Virus record (IMG/VR): IMGVR_UViG_3300020418_000018
Coordinates: 1 to 34,783 of that record
Direction: 5' to 3' (one strand)
Length of the DNA stretch: 34,783 nt
From: a virus
Part shown: positions 3,493-34,783 of the stretch, piece after piece
How the letters are laid out: each line of letters begins with the position of its first letter
How positions within the stretch are numbered: the first letter of the stretch is position 1
The notes under the pieces: generated by a model
Told to the model about the DNA's origin: nothing
Databases searched by the model: none
What the model saw: only the letters and a program-made list of their open reading frames with translations
Made by a program: the position numbers and the translations under genes

Positions 3493-3522
3493 CTTGGTAA
3501 TTAAAAAAAATCATTACCTTTG
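3493..3522 (+). promoter_or_regulatory. Bacteroidota-type promoter P1
   Basis: There is a -33-like CTTG at 3493-3496 and a perfect -7 TAnnTTTG box (TACCTTTG) at 3515-3522, spaced 18 bases. This is the known sigma-ABfr consensus of Bacteroidota. Transcription is expected to start near 3528-3530 and to pass through the hairpin at 3568-3598. Confidence 0.75.
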
Positions 3523-4813: not shown

Positions 4814-4844
4814 TTTGGTACTTTAAAAAAATGTTGTATATTTG
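4814..4844 (+). promoter_or_regulatory. Strong Bacteroidota-type promoter P2 for the early operon
   Basis: TTTG at 4814-4817 and TATATTTG at 4837-4844 are spaced exactly 19 bases, a perfect match to TTTG-N19-TAnnTTTG. The predicted start is near 4850, followed by a CTAACTATTAACTAA leader before the ATG at 4886. It likely drives the early genes up to the hairpin at 7251. Confidence 0.85.
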
Positions 4845-5994: not shown

Positions 5995-6269
5995 TGAGTG
6001 ATTGGATAGATGAGGTTCTTGATGGTAAGCCACTAGAAGCAGAGCTTTGGAAATTAGGATATATTGAGAACCTCCTACCATACACATCAATTAGTAATGA
6101 AGAAAAAGAAGAAATATATAATAAGTTATCAACTCTAACAGATATAGAAGCAGACGAGTTAATACCTTACTTAAAAGAAAATGAAATACATTTAGACCCA
6201 AAGCATCAATATGAAGCTATGAGAAAAAATGGAATGTTTAACCCTGAAAATTATAAAAATGAAAAATGA
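5994..6269 (+). CDS. Hypothetical acidic early protein
   Basis: The protein has 91 residues, is acidic and mostly helical (MSDWIDEVLDGKPLEAELWK; then EEKEEIYNKLSTLTDIEADE). It is coupled to the upstream gene by a 1-base stop/start overlap and overlaps the next gene's start by 11 bases. The C-terminus reads DPKHQYEAMRKNGMFNPENY, which could be a short interaction motif. No family is recognised; the position suggests a partner of the upstream annealing-like protein. Confidence 0.5.
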   Translation: MSDWIDEVLDGKPLEAELWKLGYIENLLPYTSISNEEKEEIYNKLSTLTDIEADELIPYLKENEIHLDPKHQYEAMRKNGMFNPENYKNEK

Positions 6270-6567
6270 TTATGAAAAAGTAAAGACTTCAAGAAATGAG
6301 CTTGAAGCAATCTTAAGAATAAGAGGAATATCTAAACAAAGATTTGGTAGAGTGTTAAATATAAAAGGCTCTACTATAGAAAAATATTTAGACAATCCAT
6401 ACTTTTTAAGATATTATCAAATGCAAAGATTAGCTAATTTTTTAAATGTAGATGTTAAAGATATTGTAGATATTATAGAAGTAGATTTAAAAGACAAAGC
6501 TATGATTTATGTAAAAGGAGAAGAAAACTTTGAAGGCGTAAAATCAATAAATATAGACAATGAATAA
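6259..6567 (+). CDS. Cro/C1 (XRE-like) helix-turn-helix protein
   Basis: The 102-residue protein has an XRE-like HTH at about residues 10-65: SRNELEAILRIRGISKQRFG, then VLNIKGSTIEKYLDNP, then MQRLANFLNVDVKDIVDII, a typical five-helix arrangement. I use ATG 6259; a longer in-frame ATG at 6229 would add 10 residues lying inside the upstream gene. The C-terminal part ends acidic. It is a likely transcription regulator of early genes and a candidate binder of the palindromes at 4731, 7562 or 14438. There is no divergent integrase or repressor gene, so it is not clearly a lysogeny repressor. Confidence 0.6.
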   Translation: MKNDYEKVKTSRNELEAILRIRGISKQRFGRVLNIKGSTIEKYLDNPYFLRYYQMQRLANFLNVDVKDIVDIIEVDLKDKAMIYVKGEENFEGVKSINIDNE

Positions 6568-7519: not shown

Positions 7520-7551
7520 TTTGGTAGATTAAAATATTATTCGTATCTTTG
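7520..7551 (+). promoter_or_regulatory. Bacteroidota-type promoter P3 for the metallopeptidase operon
   Basis: TTTG at 7520-7523 and TATCTTTG at 7544-7551 are spaced 20 bases, a near-perfect match to the consensus. The predicted start is near 7557, so the transcript begins with the palindrome at 7562. Confidence 0.8.
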
Positions 7552-11223: not shown

Positions 11224-11551
11224 ATACCCACAGGCAAGGTTCTGTGCTAGTTTAGGAGGTATTAGAACGTCTTATAAACAGGCTGTAAAGGCTAAGGCCA
11301 CAGGCTATGTAAAAGGCTTTCCTGATTTACAAATATGCGTTCCTATGCAGAGGAGGGGGGACGCTAAGGAGGGGGGAGGGGTATATCACGGATTGTTCCT
11401 AGAAATAAAGAAAGATAAAAAATCTTACCCAACTAAAGAACAGAAAGAGTGGATAGAATATTTAAACGAGCAAGGGTACTGTGCTAGGGTTACTAAAGGG
11501 TTAGACGAGACTATACAAGTTATTGATGATTATTTTAATAAAAAGCTATGA
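11168..11551 (+). CDS. VRR-NUC domain nuclease
   Basis: The 127-residue protein has the VRR-NUC order: an N-terminal helix with Glu (QEAEVQKGVVKYLKIRYPQA), the FPDL motif at residues 51-54 with catalytic Asp53, GLFLEIK at 75-81 (Glu79 and Lys81 of the PD-(D/E)xK core), and a Gln plus WIEYL helix then GYCARVTKGLDE. Such stand-alone nucleases are often structure-specific and assist replication or recombination. The start is TTG at 11168, because no ATG exists upstream of the essential helix. The loop between the two core motifs is encoded by a remarkable G-rich stretch (11352-11381). It is coupled to the next gene by ATGA. Confidence 0.8.
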   Translation: MRDQEAEVQKGVVKYLKIRYPQARFCASLGGIRTSYKQAVKAKATGYVKGFPDLQICVPMQRRGDAKEGGGVYHGLFLEIKKDKKSYPTKEQKEWIEYLNEQGYCARVTKGLDETIQVIDDYFNKKL

Positions 11552-11748
11552 GTATAAATATATATGACAGAAAAGATATGCGAGGTGGAGGATATGCTAA
11601 ACGTAAGTTCACATATGACGAAGCAGAGCAGATAAGAGCTGACTACAAATCAGGTAAATACACGCAACATCAGTTAGCGTCTTTGTATAAGGTAAGTCAG
11701 TCTATAATAAACAAGATTTTAAGGTTTAAGACCTACGTTAAGGTCTAA
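11548..11748 (+). CDS. Small helix-turn-helix protein
   Basis: This 66-residue protein carries an HTH at about residues 22-60: YDEAEQIRADYKSGKYTQHQ, then LASLYKVSQSIINKILRFKT, the form seen in resolvase- and sigma-like HTHs and in phage proteins beside nucleases. The N-terminus is Gly-rich and basic. It overlaps the nuclease stop by 4 bases and ends just before the terminator at 11794, closing the early operon. It is a possible regulator of the origin region next to it. Confidence 0.6.
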   Translation: MSINIYDRKDMRGGGYAKRKFTYDEAEQIRADYKSGKYTQHQLASLYKVSQSIINKILRFKTYVKV

Positions 11749-14140: not shown

Positions 14141-14206
14141 CTATTCTTGAGCATATCTACATACACATTCTAATTTTGATTTCAATTTCATAATTAGATA
14201 TTCCAT
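14141..14206 (-). CDS. Possible 21-residue peptide overlapping the previous one
   Basis: It begins MEYLIMKLKSKLECVC and ends RYAQE, a mostly helical, basic peptide with two Cys. It overlaps the upstream mini-ORF by 13 bases, as in coupled genes. Such ORFs occur by chance in AT-rich DNA, so support is weak. Confidence 0.2.
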   Translation of the reverse strand: MEYLIMKLKSKLECVCRYAQE

Positions 14207-14262
14207 ATTATTTTAGGTGGTAATAGTTGTATAGTTACTTTTCCAATTTTAAACTTAAACAT
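14194..14262 (-). CDS. Possible 22-residue peptide on leftward transcript
   Basis: The ORF reads MFKFKIGKVTIQLLPP, then KIIWNI and a stop. It is basic and hydrophobic with alternating residues. It is the first ATG on the leftward transcript, about 70 bases from its start. A second ORF begins inside its end in another frame. Very short; reported because of its place behind a good promoter. Confidence 0.25.
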   Translation of the reverse strand: MFKFKIGKVTIQLLPPKIIWNI

Positions 14263-14336
14263 ATTGTTGATTTTTGATTATTAGGTTATCAAATATGCTA
14301 GTTGCGATATGAGCAACAGCGTATTCTATAGGAAGT

Positions 14337-14381
14337 CAAAGGTATGCTATAAAAAATATATATTCAAGAAGTTTTTGGAAG
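14337..14381 (-). promoter_or_regulatory. Leftward promoter with TTCCAAAAA box (late-class)
   Basis: Read on the minus strand: CTTCCAAAAA (14381-14372), CTTG (14368-14365), spacer of 20, and TACCTTTG (14344-14337), a perfect -7 box. The TTCCAAAAA box is exactly 44 bases from the last G of the -7 box, the same as in the promoters at 17503 and 31308. It is the only well-supported leftward promoter in the genome. Confidence 0.7.
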
Positions 14382-14466: not shown

Positions 14467-14556
14467 ATGGAAAAAGATAAAGTTATGAATAAAGACAGGT
14501 TAGTAAAATTTCTGCAAGTTTCTTATGAAATATGGAAAAAATTGTTTTATTTGTAA
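14467..14556 (+). CDS. Possible 29-residue peptide
   Basis: The ORF reads MEKDKVMNKDRLVKFLQVSY, then EIWKKLFYL: basic, helical and amphipathic. It follows the GGGTAT palindrome and precedes the late genes. It is too short to classify and may be only a leader peptide for the virion gene at 14567. Confidence 0.3.
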   Translation: MEKDKVMNKDRLVKFLQVSYEIWKKLFYL

Positions 14557-14566
14557 AAAAAGAATT

Positions 14567-14929
14567 ATGGCATTGTACCACCCAACTGAAATGATTACTG
14601 CAAATCAAGCTCCGATAATATCGGCAGACTTAAAATATGAGAATCATGGAAAATGTAACCAAACAACAGTATTATCTAGCCACACAGGTATAACTACATT
14701 TGTTGCAGGTCAAGATGATTTTGGACAGGGCAATGGTTGGAAAGTAGTTTTTTTAGAAGAAACAACTTTAGCATTAATAACCACAAATAATATTCCTGCA
14801 ACAGAAACAGCAGCTTTTACTTCTGTAGGTTTTTCGTTTGCATCAGGATTAGAAATTATGGCTGATATTGTTAGGTTAAGAATTATTGAAGGTACTTGTA
14901 TAATTTATAAAAATTGTAATCAATCTTAA
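14567..14929 (+). CDS. Beta-rich virion protein, unknown function
   Basis: The protein has 120 residues from ATG 14567; an in-frame ATG at 14525 would add a Cys-rich segment that overlaps the small ORF. The beta-rich sequence includes TTVLSSHTGITTFVAGQDDF, GWKVVFLEETTLALITTNN and FSFASGLEIMADIVRLRIIE, typical of small phage structural proteins. It is the first solid gene of the late region, before the TerS/TerL block. It may be a head decoration or packaging accessory protein; no family is recognised. Confidence 0.5.
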   Translation: MALYHPTEMITANQAPIISADLKYENHGKCNQTTVLSSHTGITTFVAGQDDFGQGNGWKVVFLEETTLALITTNNIPATETAAFTSVGFSFASGLEIMADIVRLRIIEGTCIIYKNCNQS

Positions 14930-15663: not shown

Positions 15664-16061
15664 GTGAAGATAAAAGATATAAACTTAAAGAAAGTAATCT
15701 TAATAAATTAAACCCATATAAAGAGGTAACTGAAAAATATTTTCCAAATGGAGGAAAAATAAATACAGAGGGTAGAAAAAAGGGAGAAAAAAATAATGTA
15801 ACAGTAACTAAAATTAGTAGAAACGCTTTGACTTGGGCTTTAGAAGGGCATTCTACAAAAATTAGATTAGCACTAGATAAATTATTTGACCAAAATCCTG
15901 AGGCCTATATAAATGCAGTTTCTAAACTGTTAAATTATACAGTACCAAAATTATCGTCATCTGAAATAAATGACAATACCACAAAAAAAGTAAAAATAGA
16001 GTTGAATGATGATGTTAGCATAGAGGAATTAAGAGCCAAGCTTGATGACCTCAACAGCTAA
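15660..16061 (+). CDS. terS: Small terminase subunit (TerS-like)
   Basis: The 133-residue protein is placed directly upstream of TerL, the usual site of TerS, which recognises the packaging site and regulates TerL. A middle segment (NTEGRKKGEKNNVTVTKISR, then NALTWALEGHSTKIRLALDK) and NPEAYINAVSKLLNYTVPKL resemble TerS-like proteins of flavobacterial phages. The acidic C-terminus (KIELNDDVSIEELRAKLDDL) is the likely TerL-binding part. It overlaps TerL by 17 bases. Its identity rests on position and motif memory. Confidence 0.65.
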   Translation: MSEDKRYKLKESNLNKLNPYKEVTEKYFPNGGKINTEGRKKGEKNNVTVTKISRNALTWALEGHSTKIRLALDKLFDQNPEAYINAVSKLLNYTVPKLSSSEINDNTTKKVKIELNDDVSIEELRAKLDDLNS

Positions 16062-17502
16062 CGACCAAGCACTAAAATTTGCATTAGAAAAAAAATTATG
16101 CGAATTATCTTTCTATGAGTTTTTTAAAAAAGCTTGGCATATCGTTGAACCTAGTATTGAGCTTTCTACTAATTGGCATCATAAATATTTATGTGATATT
16201 TTACAAGAAGAAGCAGAACGAATAATTGCGAACAAGCCTAAAACAAAAGACATTGTTATAAACATACCCTTTCGTTCTACTAAATCACTTTTAGTAACAG
16301 TTATGTTTCCTGTATGGAGTTGGATAAGAAATCCAAAATTTAGATTTATAACAGCTTCATATTCTGCAGAGCTTTCTATAGAACACTCAACAAGAAGTAG
16401 AGATATAATAAATTCTAAATGGTTTAAAGATAGATGGGGGGAAATTTTTCATATTAAGAAAGACCAAAACTTAAAATCAAGATATGAGAATAATTTTTTG
16501 GGGGTAAGAAGGGCGACATCAGTTGGAGGAACAGTTACAGGGCAGGGGGGAGATTTTTTGATTGTAGATGACCCTGTATCTCCCCAAAATGCAGCTTCTG
16601 AAATAGAAAGGGAAAATGCAAACGAATGGTATAGAACAACATTTTACTCACGACTTAATAATCCTCTAACAGGAATAAGAATAGTTATTATGCAGAGAAT
16701 ACACGATAACGATTTAAGTGGTTTCTTATTGTATGGTAGAGATAGCAGAATAAAATATAGACATATCTGCATACCTGCAGAGCTTTCTGATGACGTAAAA
16801 CCAAAATCTTTAGAAAGTTATTATGATAAAAATGGTCTTTTTTGGACAGATAGATTTAGCAAAGATATATTAGACGATTACAAACAAGCTTTAGGTAGTT
16901 ATGGTTATGCAGGACAGCTTATGCAAACACCAACACCTTTAAATTCAGGTATGATAAAAGCAGAATGGCTAAGAATTGACCAAAATAAAATGATAGATGT
17001 AGGAGAAAAAGTAATTGTAGATTTTGTTATAGACCCTGCATATACATCTAACGAAAAAAATGACCCTTCGGCACTTTTAGCATATATATTTAAAAATAAC
17101 AAGTGGCAAATTATAGATTGTGTCAATGTAAGAAAGGAGTTTCCTGAATTAGTTAAGTTTATACCTCAATGGGTGCAAAAAAATGGGTATAGCAACAGAA
17201 GCAGAATATATGTAGAGCCAAAAGCATCAGGAAAGTCTATTGTGCAAACACTACAAAAAGAAACAGGATTAAATATAAGAGAAGATAAACCACCTTCTAA
17301 AGATAAAGTAGCAAGAGTGCAAGATATTTCTGCAGCTTTAGAGTCAGGAAGGGTTAGTTTATTAAGAGGTCAATGGAATGAGGAGTTTTTACAACAATTA
17401 GTAAAGTTTCCTGCAGCAAAACATGACGATATGGTAGACTGCTTGGTAATGGCACTAAATAAAAATATGTGGAATAGTGCTAAAGTTGTTTATTTTGCCT
17501 GA
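16045..17502 (+). CDS. terL: Terminase large subunit (TerL)
   Basis: The 485-residue packaging motor and nuclease has an ATPase with an atypical Walker A (NIPFRSTKSL, residues 73-82, Lys80), a Walker B FLIVDDP (171-177, Asp175-Asp176) and a coupling motif IMQRIHDND (215-223). The nuclease part is RNase H-like: VIDPAYT (Asp330), YVEPKASGKS (Glu391) and HDDMVD (Asp461-Asp465). All expected acidic residues are present, so it is likely active. The start is ATG 16045, with an in-frame TTG 3 bases upstream. The gene overlaps terS. It ends at the promoter 17503, which starts exactly at its stop. Confidence 0.92.
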   Translation: MTSTANDQALKFALEKKLCELSFYEFFKKAWHIVEPSIELSTNWHHKYLCDILQEEAERIIANKPKTKDIVINIPFRSTKSLLVTVMFPVWSWIRNPKFRFITASYSAELSIEHSTRSRDIINSKWFKDRWGEIFHIKKDQNLKSRYENNFLGVRRATSVGGTVTGQGGDFLIVDDPVSPQNAASEIERENANEWYRTTFYSRLNNPLTGIRIVIMQRIHDNDLSGFLLYGRDSRIKYRHICIPAELSDDVKPKSLESYYDKNGLFWTDRFSKDILDDYKQALGSYGYAGQLMQTPTPLNSGMIKAEWLRIDQNKMIDVGEKVIVDFVIDPAYTSNEKNDPSALLAYIFKNNKWQIIDCVNVRKEFPELVKFIPQWVQKNGYSNRSRIYVEPKASGKSIVQTLQKETGLNIREDKPPSKDKVARVQDISAALESGRVSLLRGQWNEEFLQQLVKFPAAKHDDMVDCLVMALNKNMWNSAKVVYFA

Positions 17503-17547
17503 TTTCCAAAAATTTCTCGTTTAATATAAAAAAAAATAATATACTTG
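17503..17547 (+). promoter_or_regulatory. Late-class promoter with TTTCCAAAAA box for the tail genes
   Basis: TTTCCAAAAA at 17503-17512 is followed at the fixed distance by the -7-like box TATACTTG at 17540-17547 (one mismatch from TAnnTTTG). There is no proper -33 TTTG. The first T to the final G is 44 bases, as in two other promoters, so an activator bound at the C/A box could replace the -33 contact. Confidence 0.65.
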
Positions 17548-22245: not shown

Positions 22246-25200
22246 ATGGCTAAAGACATTAGAATTGAGCTTTTACAAGACAGAGAAAATGTTAGAATTG
22301 GTAGTATAAAAATAGGCAATTCTGAGTTTTCAAATTCGTCAGGTTGGACTTCTCCAACAGGTTCTTGTGCTGATGCTTTTACATTTACAGGTGGTTTAAT
22401 GCAAAAAGCAGTAACATCAGACTGTGCTAGAGCTACAATATCTGCAAATTTTTATGAAGGCAATGAGTATGAGGTAAAAGTAGCAGTAAAAAACTACAAC
22501 AGAGTGGGTAAGCTTCTTTTAGCAAATCACGGAGTAGGAGGTGCTAATGTTACTTTGCTAGATTCAACGATTGTTCCTGCAGGAGGTGCAGGTACAGGAA
22601 GTAGTTATGGTTTTTATACTACAAGATGGGTGCAAGGTGCATCAAACACCGATAATTTACAAGTTTACGCTAACGCAGGAACAAAATTAGATTTAACTTA
22701 CATACGTCCTTATAGAACTGCAGTAGATAAAAGTTCTGTATATGGAGTTTTAGAAGCTAGTACGTCAGATGACTTTCCTATGGCTTTAACTTTTTCTGTA
22801 AACGACCCTGCAAATATTGACGCTAGAAAAGGTGCTTTTAGTAAAACTTTTCAAATACCTGCAACAAAACAAAACAATACTGTTTTAAAACATTTTGCTA
22901 TACCTAACTCTACCTTAATGGACGCACAGATATACAACAAAATACCTTGTAGAATTACTGTTGGTAATATGTATGCTATAACAGGTTTATTGCAAGTGCA
23001 AGACGTAGAAAGATTAAACGACAAGCCTATATTATACTCTTGTATATTTTTAGGAGATAACCTTGCTTGGTCTACTTTGATGGAAGGTAAATATTTAAGT
23101 GATTTACAACTAAATAATTCTACAAATTTAGTATTAGATGCTGAAAACGTAACAAAATCTTGGTATTCTGATAACGCAACAAGCACAACAGATAGGTCAG
23201 GAACGACAACAACAAATACTTCTCCTGTAGTTTATCCTCCTGTAAGTTATGGTAGGGTAAATGAAACAGGCTATGACTATGGTAATGGTTTTCAATTATA
23301 TAGACGTACTTGGGAGATTAAGTATATGAATAATGTTTCTTACAACACTTCTGAAACAGGTTATAATGACTTGCAGGTAGGGTGGTCTGGCTACCCTGTT
23401 GTAGATTGGAGGCCTCTTGTTTGGATATACAATATGATGCACCAAATATTTAATGATGTTGGTTACAAAATTAGTTCTAATTTCATGGAAACTGACAACT
23501 TTAAAAGACTTCTTTATGCTTCTCCAAATTTTTTGTTTAATAATCCAAATGAAAGAAAGCAGAACAATATGTATATTGGTAATTTTAAAGACAGTAGTTG
23601 TGCAGCATCACAAACAAATTTAAAGTTTTTTGATATAACAGGTAATTGGACTTTTAATGTAACTCAAACACCACAAACCACAACATATAGCAATACTGCT
23701 CAAAACCCATATCAAGCTATACAATTTGGCGGTACTTGTGGCTCAGGGGTAGGTAGTGGTAGATTTCAACCTGCATCAGGAGTTATAACTACAACTGCAG
23801 GTCATCAACAAGAACTTTTAGTTAGTTTAGCAGGTTCAGGAACTGCAGGAGACCCATATTATAATATGTGGACAATAAATGAAAATGGTTATTATAAAAT
23901 AACCACACAAAACATAATGTATTATTTTAATTGGGGTGTAGGAGATTGGACAGGTGCAGGAGCTATTACTAATAATAGCGTTACAGGTATAACTATTTTT
24001 GCAAATCTAGTAACAGAAGTTAGAAGGGTAGGTGGCTCAACTTGGGAAGCAATAGACCAAATAGATAATGATTCAGGAACAGAGTTAGCAGGTTTTAAAG
24101 ATGCAAAACACTCTAATATGCCATATTCTTTTGGAGGAACACTACCTGCAAGAGAAAAAACATTTTACTTTAATAAAGGAGACAACATAAGAATTACTTT
24201 TGGTATTGCTCCTAAAGTTAAAGTATCTAATCCACAATTTAATTTTGCATCTAGTGGTGGACAAACAAATCTTAATGTAAGAACAGAACTTTTTGGAACA
24301 ACTTATACTGATTGGCAGAATAATTCTGCAGGAAACCCTACAGGCTTAGTAACTATAGAGATGGTAAACGAAGACCAACCTGCTTGGGGTTCAACATATA
24401 ACTTACAAGATATATTTCCTAAAGACCAAAAACAAATAGATTTTGTTAAAGGTGTAGCACACGCATTTAATTTACAGTTTTACACGCAAGAATCTTCTAA
24501 AACAGTATTTATAGAGCCTTACAACGACTTTTATCTACCACCTAAAGATGCGGTAGATTGGAGCCATAAACTTGCTAGAAATCAATCTGACGTACAAAGT
24601 TTTATACAAAGTAATTTTACAAGAAGATTAGTATTTAAATATAAAACAGACGACAAAGATTGGAGGGTAAACAGAATGAGTGAAACATACTTTGATAATT
24701 TAGGAGATAATTATCCAAAACAAGTAGAACTTCCTGACACTTATCCTGCAGGAACAACAGTATTTGAAAACCCTTTCTTTGCAGGTACATATGATTCTCA
24801 AAATTGGGGTGCAGGAGGTTTAGAAACTTATAATCAAAACAATTATACTGCTTCTTTGTGGACTGCTGATGAGTGGTACAACTCTCCAAAAGGTTATGAA
24901 TTTAAACCTAGATTATTATACTACAATAAAATGACAATGCCTTCAGCACACACCCCACTATGGCAGGGTTTTAGGGTGCAAGATGGCTCTTGGAATGCCT
25001 TACAAACTTGGAATTTTCAAAATCAAAGAGTACAAACTGCTGATGTAACAACTCACGCACAAAGTACATATTCACCTGCTTCTCCTAATGAAACTAATGC
25101 TTTTTATTGTTCTGCTACATTTATTGATAGACATAGTTATACAAATCAGTTTGGACTTTCTTATGGTAATTATTGGGCTAAAGATTACGACCCTGCTACT

Positions 25201-30671: not shown

Positions 30672-31001
30672 ATGGACTTAGAATCAATAATTAAAAACTA
30701 TTCTGACGCAAAACAGGATAAAATTGTAGAATTAGCCAAGCAAAACAAAAAATCAATGGCAGGTAATACATATCACACTAACGCTTTAAATTATTTCTTC
30801 AATTTATGGCACGAACATTTTCCTCAACAAAAACAATCTAAACATTGTAATGGGTGTAGGAAAGCTGTTTGTAAATTTTTTCATAATGTAGCTGACTATA
30901 TTATTTCTTTAAGAAAAGCTCCTGAAGTTGTGGAGGTTGCTAAAAGTGTAAAAACAAAAAAACCTAAACAAGAAAATAAATCTAATGTCAAGAAAAAATA
31001 A
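30672..31001 (+). CDS. Small Cys/His protein, unknown function
   Basis: The 109-residue basic protein contains a helical N-terminus (LESIIKNYSDAKQDKIVELA), the segment NYFFNLWHEHFPQQKQSKHC and the CNGCRKAVCKFFHN motif (about 55-69), which could bind zinc through Cys and His. The C-terminus is Lys-rich (KTKKPKQENKSNVKKK). It overlaps the HTH gene by 17 bases. It occurs between tape measure and prohead protease; no family is recognised. Confidence 0.5.
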   Translation: MDLESIIKNYSDAKQDKIVELAKQNKKSMAGNTYHTNALNYFFNLWHEHFPQQKQSKHCNGCRKAVCKFFHNVADYIISLRKAPEVVEVAKSVKTKKPKQENKSNVKKK

Positions 31002-31302
31002 AATAGATATAGTTTACGAATACATCAAGGTAGCAGAAAAAGAAATTTTAAAAAGATGGCACGAGCCAACAATAATTGATATTTTAAGACACCTTACAGA
31101 AAGAGGTATAGTAGAGCCTAAAAGATTAAGAAACTATATGATAATTCACGATTTTGACACTATGTTAAGGTTTAACGAGGGCAATAGAACACATACTTTT
31201 ATGGACTTATCAATAAAATATGATATTTCTGAAAGACAAGCACAAAGCATAGTTTACAAAGAAAGAGTTAAAGAAAACGCTAATTACAATATTACCTATT
31301 AA
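30985..31302 (+). CDS. HTH protein, candidate late regulator
   Basis: The 105-residue protein has an N-terminal helical domain (KIDIVYEYIKVAEKEILKRW) and a C-terminal HTH (FMDLSIKYDISERQAQSIVY, about 72-91) of Mor/sigma-like type. It is 5 bases before the TTTCCAAAAA box of the promoter at 31308, so it could regulate that promoter, perhaps as the activator that reads the box. It could instead be a structural-region DNA-binding protein. Confidence 0.55.
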   Translation: MSRKNKIDIVYEYIKVAEKEILKRWHEPTIIDILRHLTERGIVEPKRLRNYMIIHDFDTMLRFNEGNRTHTFMDLSIKYDISERQAQSIVYKERVKENANYNITY

Positions 31303-31307
31303 AGTTT

Positions 31308-31352
31308 TTTCCAAAAACTGCGTAAAATAACAAAATCTTTAAAATATTTTTG
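31308..31352 (+). promoter_or_regulatory. Late-class promoter with TTTCCAAAAA box for protease/capsid genes
   Basis: TTTCCAAAAA is at 31308-31317 and TATTTTTG at 31345-31352, a perfect -7 box with no -33 TTTG. The spacing from first T to last G is 44 bases, identical to 17503 and to the leftward promoter. The predicted start, about 6 bases after 31352, coincides with ATG 31358. Confidence 0.65.
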
Positions 31353-31357
31353 CGTTT

Positions 31358-32359
31358 ATGGAAAAATGGTATAATATAAATAATATGGCATCTACAAGTA
31401 TTGTAGATGTTTATATTTTTGATGAAATAGGTTCTTATGGTGTTAATGCACAATCTTTTATAGAGGAGATAAAAGCATACAGAAAGAAGCCTATGAATCT
31501 TCATATTAACTGTGTTGGTGGAGATGTCTTTGATGGAATGGCTATTTATAATGTTATTAAAAAAAGAACTGCAGAAACTACAGTTTATATAGAGGGTATT
31601 GCTGCAAGTATGGGTAGTGTTATTGCTTTAGCTGCAGATAATGTCGTAATGGCTGAAAATTCTCTTTTTATGATACACAACGCTTGGGGTGGAGCTATGG
31701 GAGAAGCAAGTGAGATGAGAAAAACAGCAAATCTTTTAGAAAAAATAAGTAATGAGATTGCTGACATCTATGTTAAGAAAACCAAATTACCTTATGATAA
31801 GGTTAAAGATATGATGGACGAAGAAACTTGGTTAAATGCTGACGAAGCATTAGAACTAGGTTTTGTAGACTCTATCTCGGACGCTATTAAAGTAGCTGCC
31901 AAATATGATGTTTCTAAGTTTAAAAATATTACAAACGAAGAAATTGTAAATAAGTTGAATGTTAATTTAAAAAGTAAAAAAATGACTGATGAATTAAAAA
32001 ATTGGTTCAACAACAAAGTTGATGATATTATCGCAAGAGTTAAAAGCGAAAAATCTGAAAATGAAGATGTTGATACAAACAAGGAGGTTGAGATTACTAT
32101 AGCTGACGAAGCACAAGTTTTAAATAAGCTTGTAGATTTTGAAACTAAAGTAACTGAGCTTAATGGGTCAATCGCAGAATTAGAAGGAGAAAAAGCAACT
32201 CTTACTGAGGAAGTAGAAAGACTTAATGCTTTATTAAGTAAAGCAGATGCAAAGGGAACTGAAATCTCTACAGACGGAGACCCTGCAGTAGTAGAAAATA
32301 AAGTAGAGAGCAAAGATGTTGCGTTTTGGAATAAAATAGCAACAAAGTTAAAAGTTTAA
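31358..32359 (+). CDS. ClpP-like prohead protease with C-terminal scaffold domain
   Basis: The 333-residue protein has a serine protease part (residues 1-185) with the ClpP/S14 fold: VYIFDEIGSYGVNAQ, INCVGGDVFDGMAIYN, VYIEGIAASMGSVIALAAD with Ser84 nucleophile, NSLFMIHNAWGG with His107 and DMMDEETWLNADEALELGFVD (Asp around 151-154). After about 205, an acidic coiled-coil region (DFETKVTELNGSIAELEGEK) forms a scaffold domain, so protease and scaffold are fused. It processes the prohead during capsid maturation. The start at 31358 coincides with the predicted RNA start; a second ATG lies at 31385. Confidence 0.85.
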   Translation: MEKWYNINNMASTSIVDVYIFDEIGSYGVNAQSFIEEIKAYRKKPMNLHINCVGGDVFDGMAIYNVIKKRTAETTVYIEGIAASMGSVIALAADNVVMAENSLFMIHNAWGGAMGEASEMRKTANLLEKISNEIADIYVKKTKLPYDKVKDMMDEETWLNADEALELGFVDSISDAIKVAAKYDVSKFKNITNEEIVNKLNVNLKSKKMTDELKNWFNNKVDDIIARVKSEKSENEDVDTNKEVEITIADEAQVLNKLVDFETKVTELNGSIAELEGEKATLTEEVERLNALLSKADAKGTEISTDGDPAVVENKVESKDVAFWNKIATKLKV

Positions 32360-34161: not shown

Positions 34162-34458
34162 ATGTGCGATTGTAATAGTAAAAAAAATGTGGTAGATTTA
34201 CCACATCTAAAAATATATACAAAAATGGCAAATTATAAAGTAAAAAAAGAATTTAAAAATACAGCAACTTACTTTGGCAATGTTAGAGTACGTTGGGAGG
34301 ACGCTACTGATGAAACTCTTGCTTGGGTGTATGAAGAAGCAAAAAATGGTTCTCATTATGTAGAAAAAATTGACAAAATCAATAAATCATATGAAAAAAG
34401 CGACAGTAAAGTCAGCAAAAAAGGTAGCGACAACAAGAAAGACTCAAAAGAAGAATAA
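34162..34458 (+). CDS. Small basic protein upstream of portal
   Basis: The 98-residue protein is basic and Lys-rich at its C-terminus (SKVSKKGSDNKKDSKEE). The part from the second ATG at 34225 (ANYKVKKEFKNTATYFGNVR, then VRWEDATDETLAWVYEEAKN) looks like the functional unit, so the start may be 34225. A perfect hairpin (ATGTGGTA/TACCACAT, 34187-34206) lies between the two ATGs, perhaps controlling start choice. It overlaps the portal start by 68 bases. It may be a connector or virion peptide; no family is recognised. Confidence 0.5.
   Translation: MCDCNSKKNVVDLPHLKIYTKMANYKVKKEFKNTATYFGNVRVRWEDATDETLAWVYEEAKNGSHYVEKIDKINKSYEKSDSKVSKKGSDNKKDSKEE
34187..34206. repeat. Perfect inverted repeat ATGTGGTA-GATT-TACCACAT
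   Basis: 8-bp arms and a 4-base loop form a stable RNA hairpin in this AT-rich genome. It lies inside the first 21 codons of the 34162 ORF and before the alternative start at 34225. Confidence 0.6.
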
Positions 34459-34783
34459 TACGTTTGAGTTTGGGGTATTTGATTTAACAGTACCACCAAG
34501 TATTAAAGAGCCTAAAAACTTACACAATATTCAAACAGATTGGATACCTTTTGGAGATGACAATTTGTTTCCTCAATACCTAGCTGAATTAAAAAGAAAA
34601 TCATCTACTCACAGAAGTGTTTTAGCTCAAAAAACTGTATTTACAAGTGGAGCTAAATTTGTTTGTGATAATGATAGTTTAAGAGAGTTTATAGAAGATG
34701 TAAACGCTGACCACGAATCATTAAGAGATGTATTTAAAAAATTAGCTGACGATTACTACACTTTTGGTAACGCATACATGGAG
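34391..34783 (+). CDS. Phage portal protein, N-terminal 131 residues (continues at base 1)
   Basis: It starts at ATG 34391 (MKKATVKSAKKVATTRKTQK) and runs open to the last base, where it continues in frame at position 1. The portal core begins around FGVFDLTVPPSIKEPKNLHN and WIPFGDDNLFPQYLAELKRK, with TFGNAYME at the window end. The basic N-terminus overlaps the upstream ORF by 68 bases; a later start is impossible because no other Met precedes the core. It is the first part of the 441-residue portal described at 1-933. Confidence 0.85.
   Translation, partial: MKKATVKSAKKVATTRKTQKKNNTFEFGVFDLTVPPSIKEPKNLHNIQTDWIPFGDDNLFPQYLAELKRKSSTHRSVLAQKTVFTSGAKFVCDNDSLREFIEDVNADHESLRDVFKKLADDYYTFGNAYME

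Follow-up and report, generated by a model that had tools for sequence, protein, structure and literature searches.

The window, by which we mean the whole 34,783-nucleotide stretch of DNA analysed here, is a contig of a tailed phage (34.8 kb), complete or nearly so. Its two ends (34370-34783 and 1-933) carry two parts of one portal-like gene that match adjoining stretches in distant relatives, and the window is therefore probably circularly permuted or circular. TerL, the terminase gene, occupies 16042-17502, and 31358-32359 encodes a ClpP-like prohead protease; the closest cultured terminases are those of Croceibacter phage P2559Y (~44% identity) and Cellulophaga phage phi17:1 (39%). The -7 boxes of its promoters indicate a Bacteroidota host. 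A host search in genome contigs returned no relative of the protein encoded at 30985-31302, discussed below, and only distant terminases, while a search of the window for known RNA families and tRNAs found none.

The pattern YTTCCAAAAA-N27-TAnnYTTG occurs at three sites with the same spacing and has no further match in the record; the preliminary description had placed it at 17503-17547, 31308-31352 and 14381-14337, and both these coordinates and the identical spacing are correct. Late promoter A (17503-17547, plus strand; box 17504-17516, -7 box 17540-17547) follows TerL and heads the tail and tape-measure operon, and late promoter B (31308-31352, plus strand; box 31309-31321, -7 box 31345-31352) heads the protease, capsid, portal and lysis genes. 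Late-type promoter C (14337-14381, minus strand; box 14380-14368, -7 box 14344-14337) faces leftward, towards a predicted small transcript. A further site that had been overlooked, D (14510-14553, plus strand), is divergent from C, heads the packaging cluster and reads TTCTGCAAGTTTC...TTTATTTG, with a degenerate box at 14510-14522 and the -7-like TTTATTTG at 14546-14553. Its score in the window (10.7) is within the shuffle range, the best shuffle score averaging 11.0, and D is counted as a putative box promoter by homology only, its orthologues being clear in several relatives. The first open reading frame of the packaging cluster has a listed start at 14525 that overlaps promoter D; translation more likely begins at the in-frame ATG at 14567. 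Judged by gene content, A, B and D are the heads of all rightward late operons, which make up the whole late half of the genome, and these operons would accordingly be expressed late.

The box as first described is real but too short. Base frequencies over 99 sites give a longer box (TTCCWAAAACTKC), which occupies positions 0-12 and reads TTCC[AT]AAAACT[TG]C; on this count, the -7 box has its G at position 43. The nine-base word TTCCAAAAA alone occurs at about the chance level in the window (4 matches against 1.46 expected), the fourth match (24290-24298, minus strand) being within coding sequence and without a -7 box. The combination of box and -7 box at fixed spacing, observed three times, did not arise even once in 500 dinucleotide shuffles, and a scan of gaps from 15 to 40 bases between the two elements gave matches at 27 only. 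A packaging or replication site was also considered for the box, and was rejected because it leaves the fixed distance to the -7 box unexplained.

Bacteroidota sigma-A promoters combine a -7 TAnnTTTG with a -33 TTTG (PMC9723704, PMC7366714), and the early promoters of this phage conform to that type. As had been claimed for the window, the early promoters at 3493-3522, 4814-4844 (plus strand) and 7520-7551 (plus strand) carry no box; the latter two have the -33 TTTG and, in most of the relatives checked, recur as TTTGGTA...TATCTTTG or a similar sequence, scoring far below zero for the box. All three have the extended -33 element [CT]TTGGTA in common, and those at 4814-4844 and 7520-7551 keep it in most relatives. 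The late promoters, by contrast, retain the sigma-A -7 box as TAnnYTTG but exchange the -33 TTTG for the phage box. The absence of TTTG noted at the two rightward copies turned out to be general: of 99 unique box sites, just 1 has TTTG at a spacer of 18-21. Promoter C, the leftward copy of the window, has CTTG near -33. Flavobacterial sigma-A -7 boxes span -12 to -5 (PMC9723704), and on that basis the phage box would extend from about -48 to -36, with its centre near -42, just upstream of the -33 place.

Whether relatives keep the box and its spacing had been set beforehand as a test, and it was passed in about 20 related phage records, which carry the box at up to four homologous places (D before the packaging cluster, C leftward, A after the terminase and B before the ClpP-like protease) and at background level elsewhere. 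For the comparison of single loci, 58 terminase and 80 ClpP loci were taken from viral contigs. Site A is present in nearly all close relatives fetched, as TTTCYAAAAACTTCTAG...TATAATTGCG downstream of TerL, and site B stands upstream of ClpP as TTCCWAAAACTKCG...TATTTTTG or near variants in 79 of the 79 loci read (one partial). Across 99 unique sites, conserved blocks cover positions 0-13 and 36-44, and the AT-rich spacer between them is free to vary. When 2.9 million viral contigs were scanned for the exact pattern, at least 119 stretches were recovered, and among the matches listed nearly all belong to this phage group at homologous positions. In the cultured relatives Cellulophaga phi17:1 and Croceibacter P2559Y and P2559S, the best box scores were inside the shuffle range. 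One relative (locus L027 of genome G006, at ~3882 of the locus, after TerL) has an intact box, and the bases from there up to TATTGCG are deleted, so that this site A promoter looks broken or misassembled.

These data bear on the simplest alternative, namely that three AT-rich intergenic sequences resemble one another by chance or shared descent and have no function. The genome is indeed AT-rich, and the nine-base word by itself is no commoner than expected; nevertheless, the shuffles and the conservation of the layout down to ~40% ClpP identity rule out a chance AT-rich word, and because two conserved blocks flank a variable spacer the reading of chance or descent is already refuted, which leaves it exceedingly improbable.

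The box differs among clades of relatives, and site B provides the fullest series. Type I is TTCCWAAAACTKCG (approximately TTCC-N6-TKC), type II GTAAGAAAATTRGG, type III TTCCAAAARTTRGG, a hybrid, and type IV TTCCATTTTTTTCG; the type III and IV records are short fragments. In the type II clade (G013-G016; ~75% identity in TerL and ~62% in ClpP), the canonical box is absent and GTWAGAAAAYTRKG stands instead at sites A and B, at an unchanged spacing or one base longer; C has a similar but weaker sequence, as does D in two records. Such a joint change at several promoters of G013-G016 is a sign of a trans-acting factor, and we consider it very likely that some trans-acting activator reads the box. 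In type V (~40% ClpP identity; sites located by regular expression and matrix), site B is TTCC-N6-TTCC, a perfect 10-bp direct repeat, with 44 bases from the first T to the -7 G. At site A of this group (before the orthologue of the 17545 gene, at L469 3122 of G044 and in G042, G043 and G045), box and -7 box are exactly 10 bp closer together than at site B; the spacers are 12 and 22 bases, respectively, a difference of one helical turn. The -7 box of the group V late promoters (L463-L473) is TATATTG[TC], a form that resembles the SM5 motif TAnnTTGY of Flavobacterium psychrophilum (PMC9723704) and may reflect a different host or sigma factor.

The transcript predicted from promoter C has features of its own. 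It carries a micro-ORF of 22 amino acids (MFKFKIGKVTIQLLPPKIIWNI; 14194-14262, minus strand) that is under purifying selection (pN/pS 0.26 over 24 unique sequences from relatives) and is gone in the type II clade. In its leader (~14300-14320, minus strand), the leftward transcript contains TTGCTCATATCGCAA, which is retained in G013-G016 despite the loss of the micro-ORF. RNAalifold found no consensus structure in the leftward RNA.

The best candidate for the activator is a 105-residue helix-turn-helix protein encoded at 30985-31302 (plus strand; hereafter 30985). Its AF2 model (mean pLDDT 83.6) is all-helical with a C-terminal helix-turn-helix, in which residues 83-93 form the predicted recognition helix and Arg84 is the key residue. 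The protein co-occurs with the box throughout, down to phages at 40% ClpP identity: four group V genomes encode homologues (E about 1e-35) in the syntenic place. Over 144 box/protein pairs, residue 84 and box base 12 change together, with R84 accompanying C12 in 93 of 93 pairs and S84 accompanying G or T in 51 of 51. Residue 84 is the sole column of 30985 fixed for different residues between box classes, and in the ClpP control from the same loci 0 of 331 columns are fixed-different. Type IV combines R84 with C12 and group V K84 with C12, from which the simple inference is that Arg or Lys 84 may contact the guanine opposite C12. On the ClpP tree, residue 84 and box base 12 each show two changes, only one of them on strongly supported branches, and because this amounts to one or two evolutionary events the covariation is suggestive, not significant. 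Another factor may read the upstream half of the box, as that half changes separately from residue 84 in type III.

The covariation also speaks to the possibility that the phage has no activator and exploits a host regulator that reads the box. Phages can exploit host factors, the clades may differ in host, and the binding protein named here for the box is a candidate only. A common host factor would nonetheless be expected to keep the box constant, whereas the box varies by clade at several promoters at once and tracks a residue of a phage protein; we therefore regard a host regulator as very unlikely.

Among the helix-turn-helix proteins put forward in the preliminary description (30985, 6229 and 11548), co-occurrence and covariation favour the first. 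The box could instead be the site of an activator made early and acting at late promoters, namely the 66-residue helix-turn-helix protein at 11548-11748 (plus strand), the Cro/CI-like helix-turn-helix protein of the early operon at 6229-6567 (plus strand) or a small early protein. The 11548 gene has a position usual for a late activator, near the early operon's end, and its helix is similar to that of Mu C; the helices of 11548 and 6229 are both altered in the type II clade, and several small early genes are kept in group V as well. Yet a search of four group V genomes with both the box and 30985 did not find 11548, which makes it the less likely protein, and its helix varies (VSQSIINK, VDQTIINK, VSQPLINQ) among phages in which the canonical box is constant. 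Nor was it found in the type III and IV records, but these fragments are too short for that result to carry weight. The 6229 protein is marginal in group V, at E 0.002-0.005 in two genomes. An early-made activator is thus possible but rather doubtful, and 30985 is in our judgement probably the activator of the late promoters, although the position of its gene at the end of late operon A means that its first expression would need read-through or leak.

Comparisons of 30985 with known proteins did not place it in a described activator family: profile searches against PDB sequences, Pfam searches and Foldseek gave no significant match. The 30985 profile found nothing significant among PDB sequences; Foldseek against PDB and viral models returned none at E 0.001, the best viral model having E 2e-3; and no match to 30985 was found in cultured phages. 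Weak matches to PHROG 836, annotated as a late transcriptional activator, came from 37 of 39 orthologues.

Three phage systems offer points of comparison. Mu C and Mor are small phage helix-turn-helix activators that bind beside or over the -35 of promoters without a good -35, and their sites are dyads. Superposition of the C-terminal helices of 30985 gives Z 5.2 with C (9l0x) and Z 4.9 with Mor (1rr7), values within the background for helical models; a profile comparison with C and Mor was not significant, and the Mor Pfam family (PF08765) had no match above its curated cut-off in eight records searched, the window included. The box here is asymmetric or a direct repeat, not an inverted one. 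Lambda CII reads TTGC-N6-TTGC, a 10-bp direct repeat near -35, and the group V box likewise has two tetramers in direct repeat six bases apart (TTCC-N6-TTCC), type I doing so approximately. Unlike the CII site, however, the box does not straddle the -33 place but sits immediately upstream, and it serves late genes; among 39 orthologues of 30985, none matched the CII Pfam family up to E 5. The T4 MotA box replaces the -35, works with a good -10 and is centred near -30. Here too the box stands in place of a -35-type element, but its centre would fall near -42, and no match to MotA was found. By analogy, the system may work like a phage late activator such as Mu C, with a repeat geometry like that of lambda CII, and we assign it to neither family.

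Sigma appropriation, in which a sigma factor works with a phage co-factor, or recognition by a phage or alternative sigma factor, would turn the box into a -35-type element contacted by the polymerase itself. The box does adjoin the -33 region and takes the place of TTTG, an alignment to sigma regions 3-4 covers part of the 30985 model (Z about 5), and some 11548 orthologues show a weak Sigma70 region 4 match. Against this, the box promoters have the ordinary sigma-A -7 box TAnnTTTG, a Z of about 5 is background for helical models, and the 13-base box sits upstream of the -33 place rather than on it, so that we rate direct contact by the polymerase as unlikely.

The preferred reading is thus that the box is the predicted binding site of a phage-encoded late activator, likeliest 30985, which would act in a class-II-like manner and represent a new small activator family; on the sequence comparisons made here we judge this probable. 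The earlier suggestion that the shared box is a phage-activator site is supported by its conservation and its confinement to late-type promoters, activation itself being what we infer. At class II positions, a bound activator contacts sigma region 4 and the RNA polymerase alpha subunit. In the mechanism we propose, a sequence-specific activator encoded by the phage would bind the box at about -48 to -36, a class II position, and offset the missing -33 contact, switching on the packaging, tail and head/lysis operons together with the leftward small transcript. The recognition helix of 30985 would read the downstream half-box, with Arg84 on the guanine opposite C12. On this mechanism, 30985 is probably the switch for the late genes and has changed in step with its box.

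More broadly, the 30985 family may be a new and widespread family of late activators in phages of uncultured marine Bacteroidota, with a bipartite box whose halves lie one helical turn apart and a specificity rewired via residue 84 as the box changes at several promoters; we see the case for this wider claim as evenly balanced. A full-text search, with most subscription papers outside its scope, turned up no account of activated late promoters as a class in Bacteroidota phages. The analysis provides a predicted map of early and late promoters for a widespread group of uncultured phages with a named candidate activator, and makes available natural activator/box pairs of differing specificity. 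If the proposal is true, it shows how a Bacteroidota sigma-A promoter dispenses with the -33 contact.
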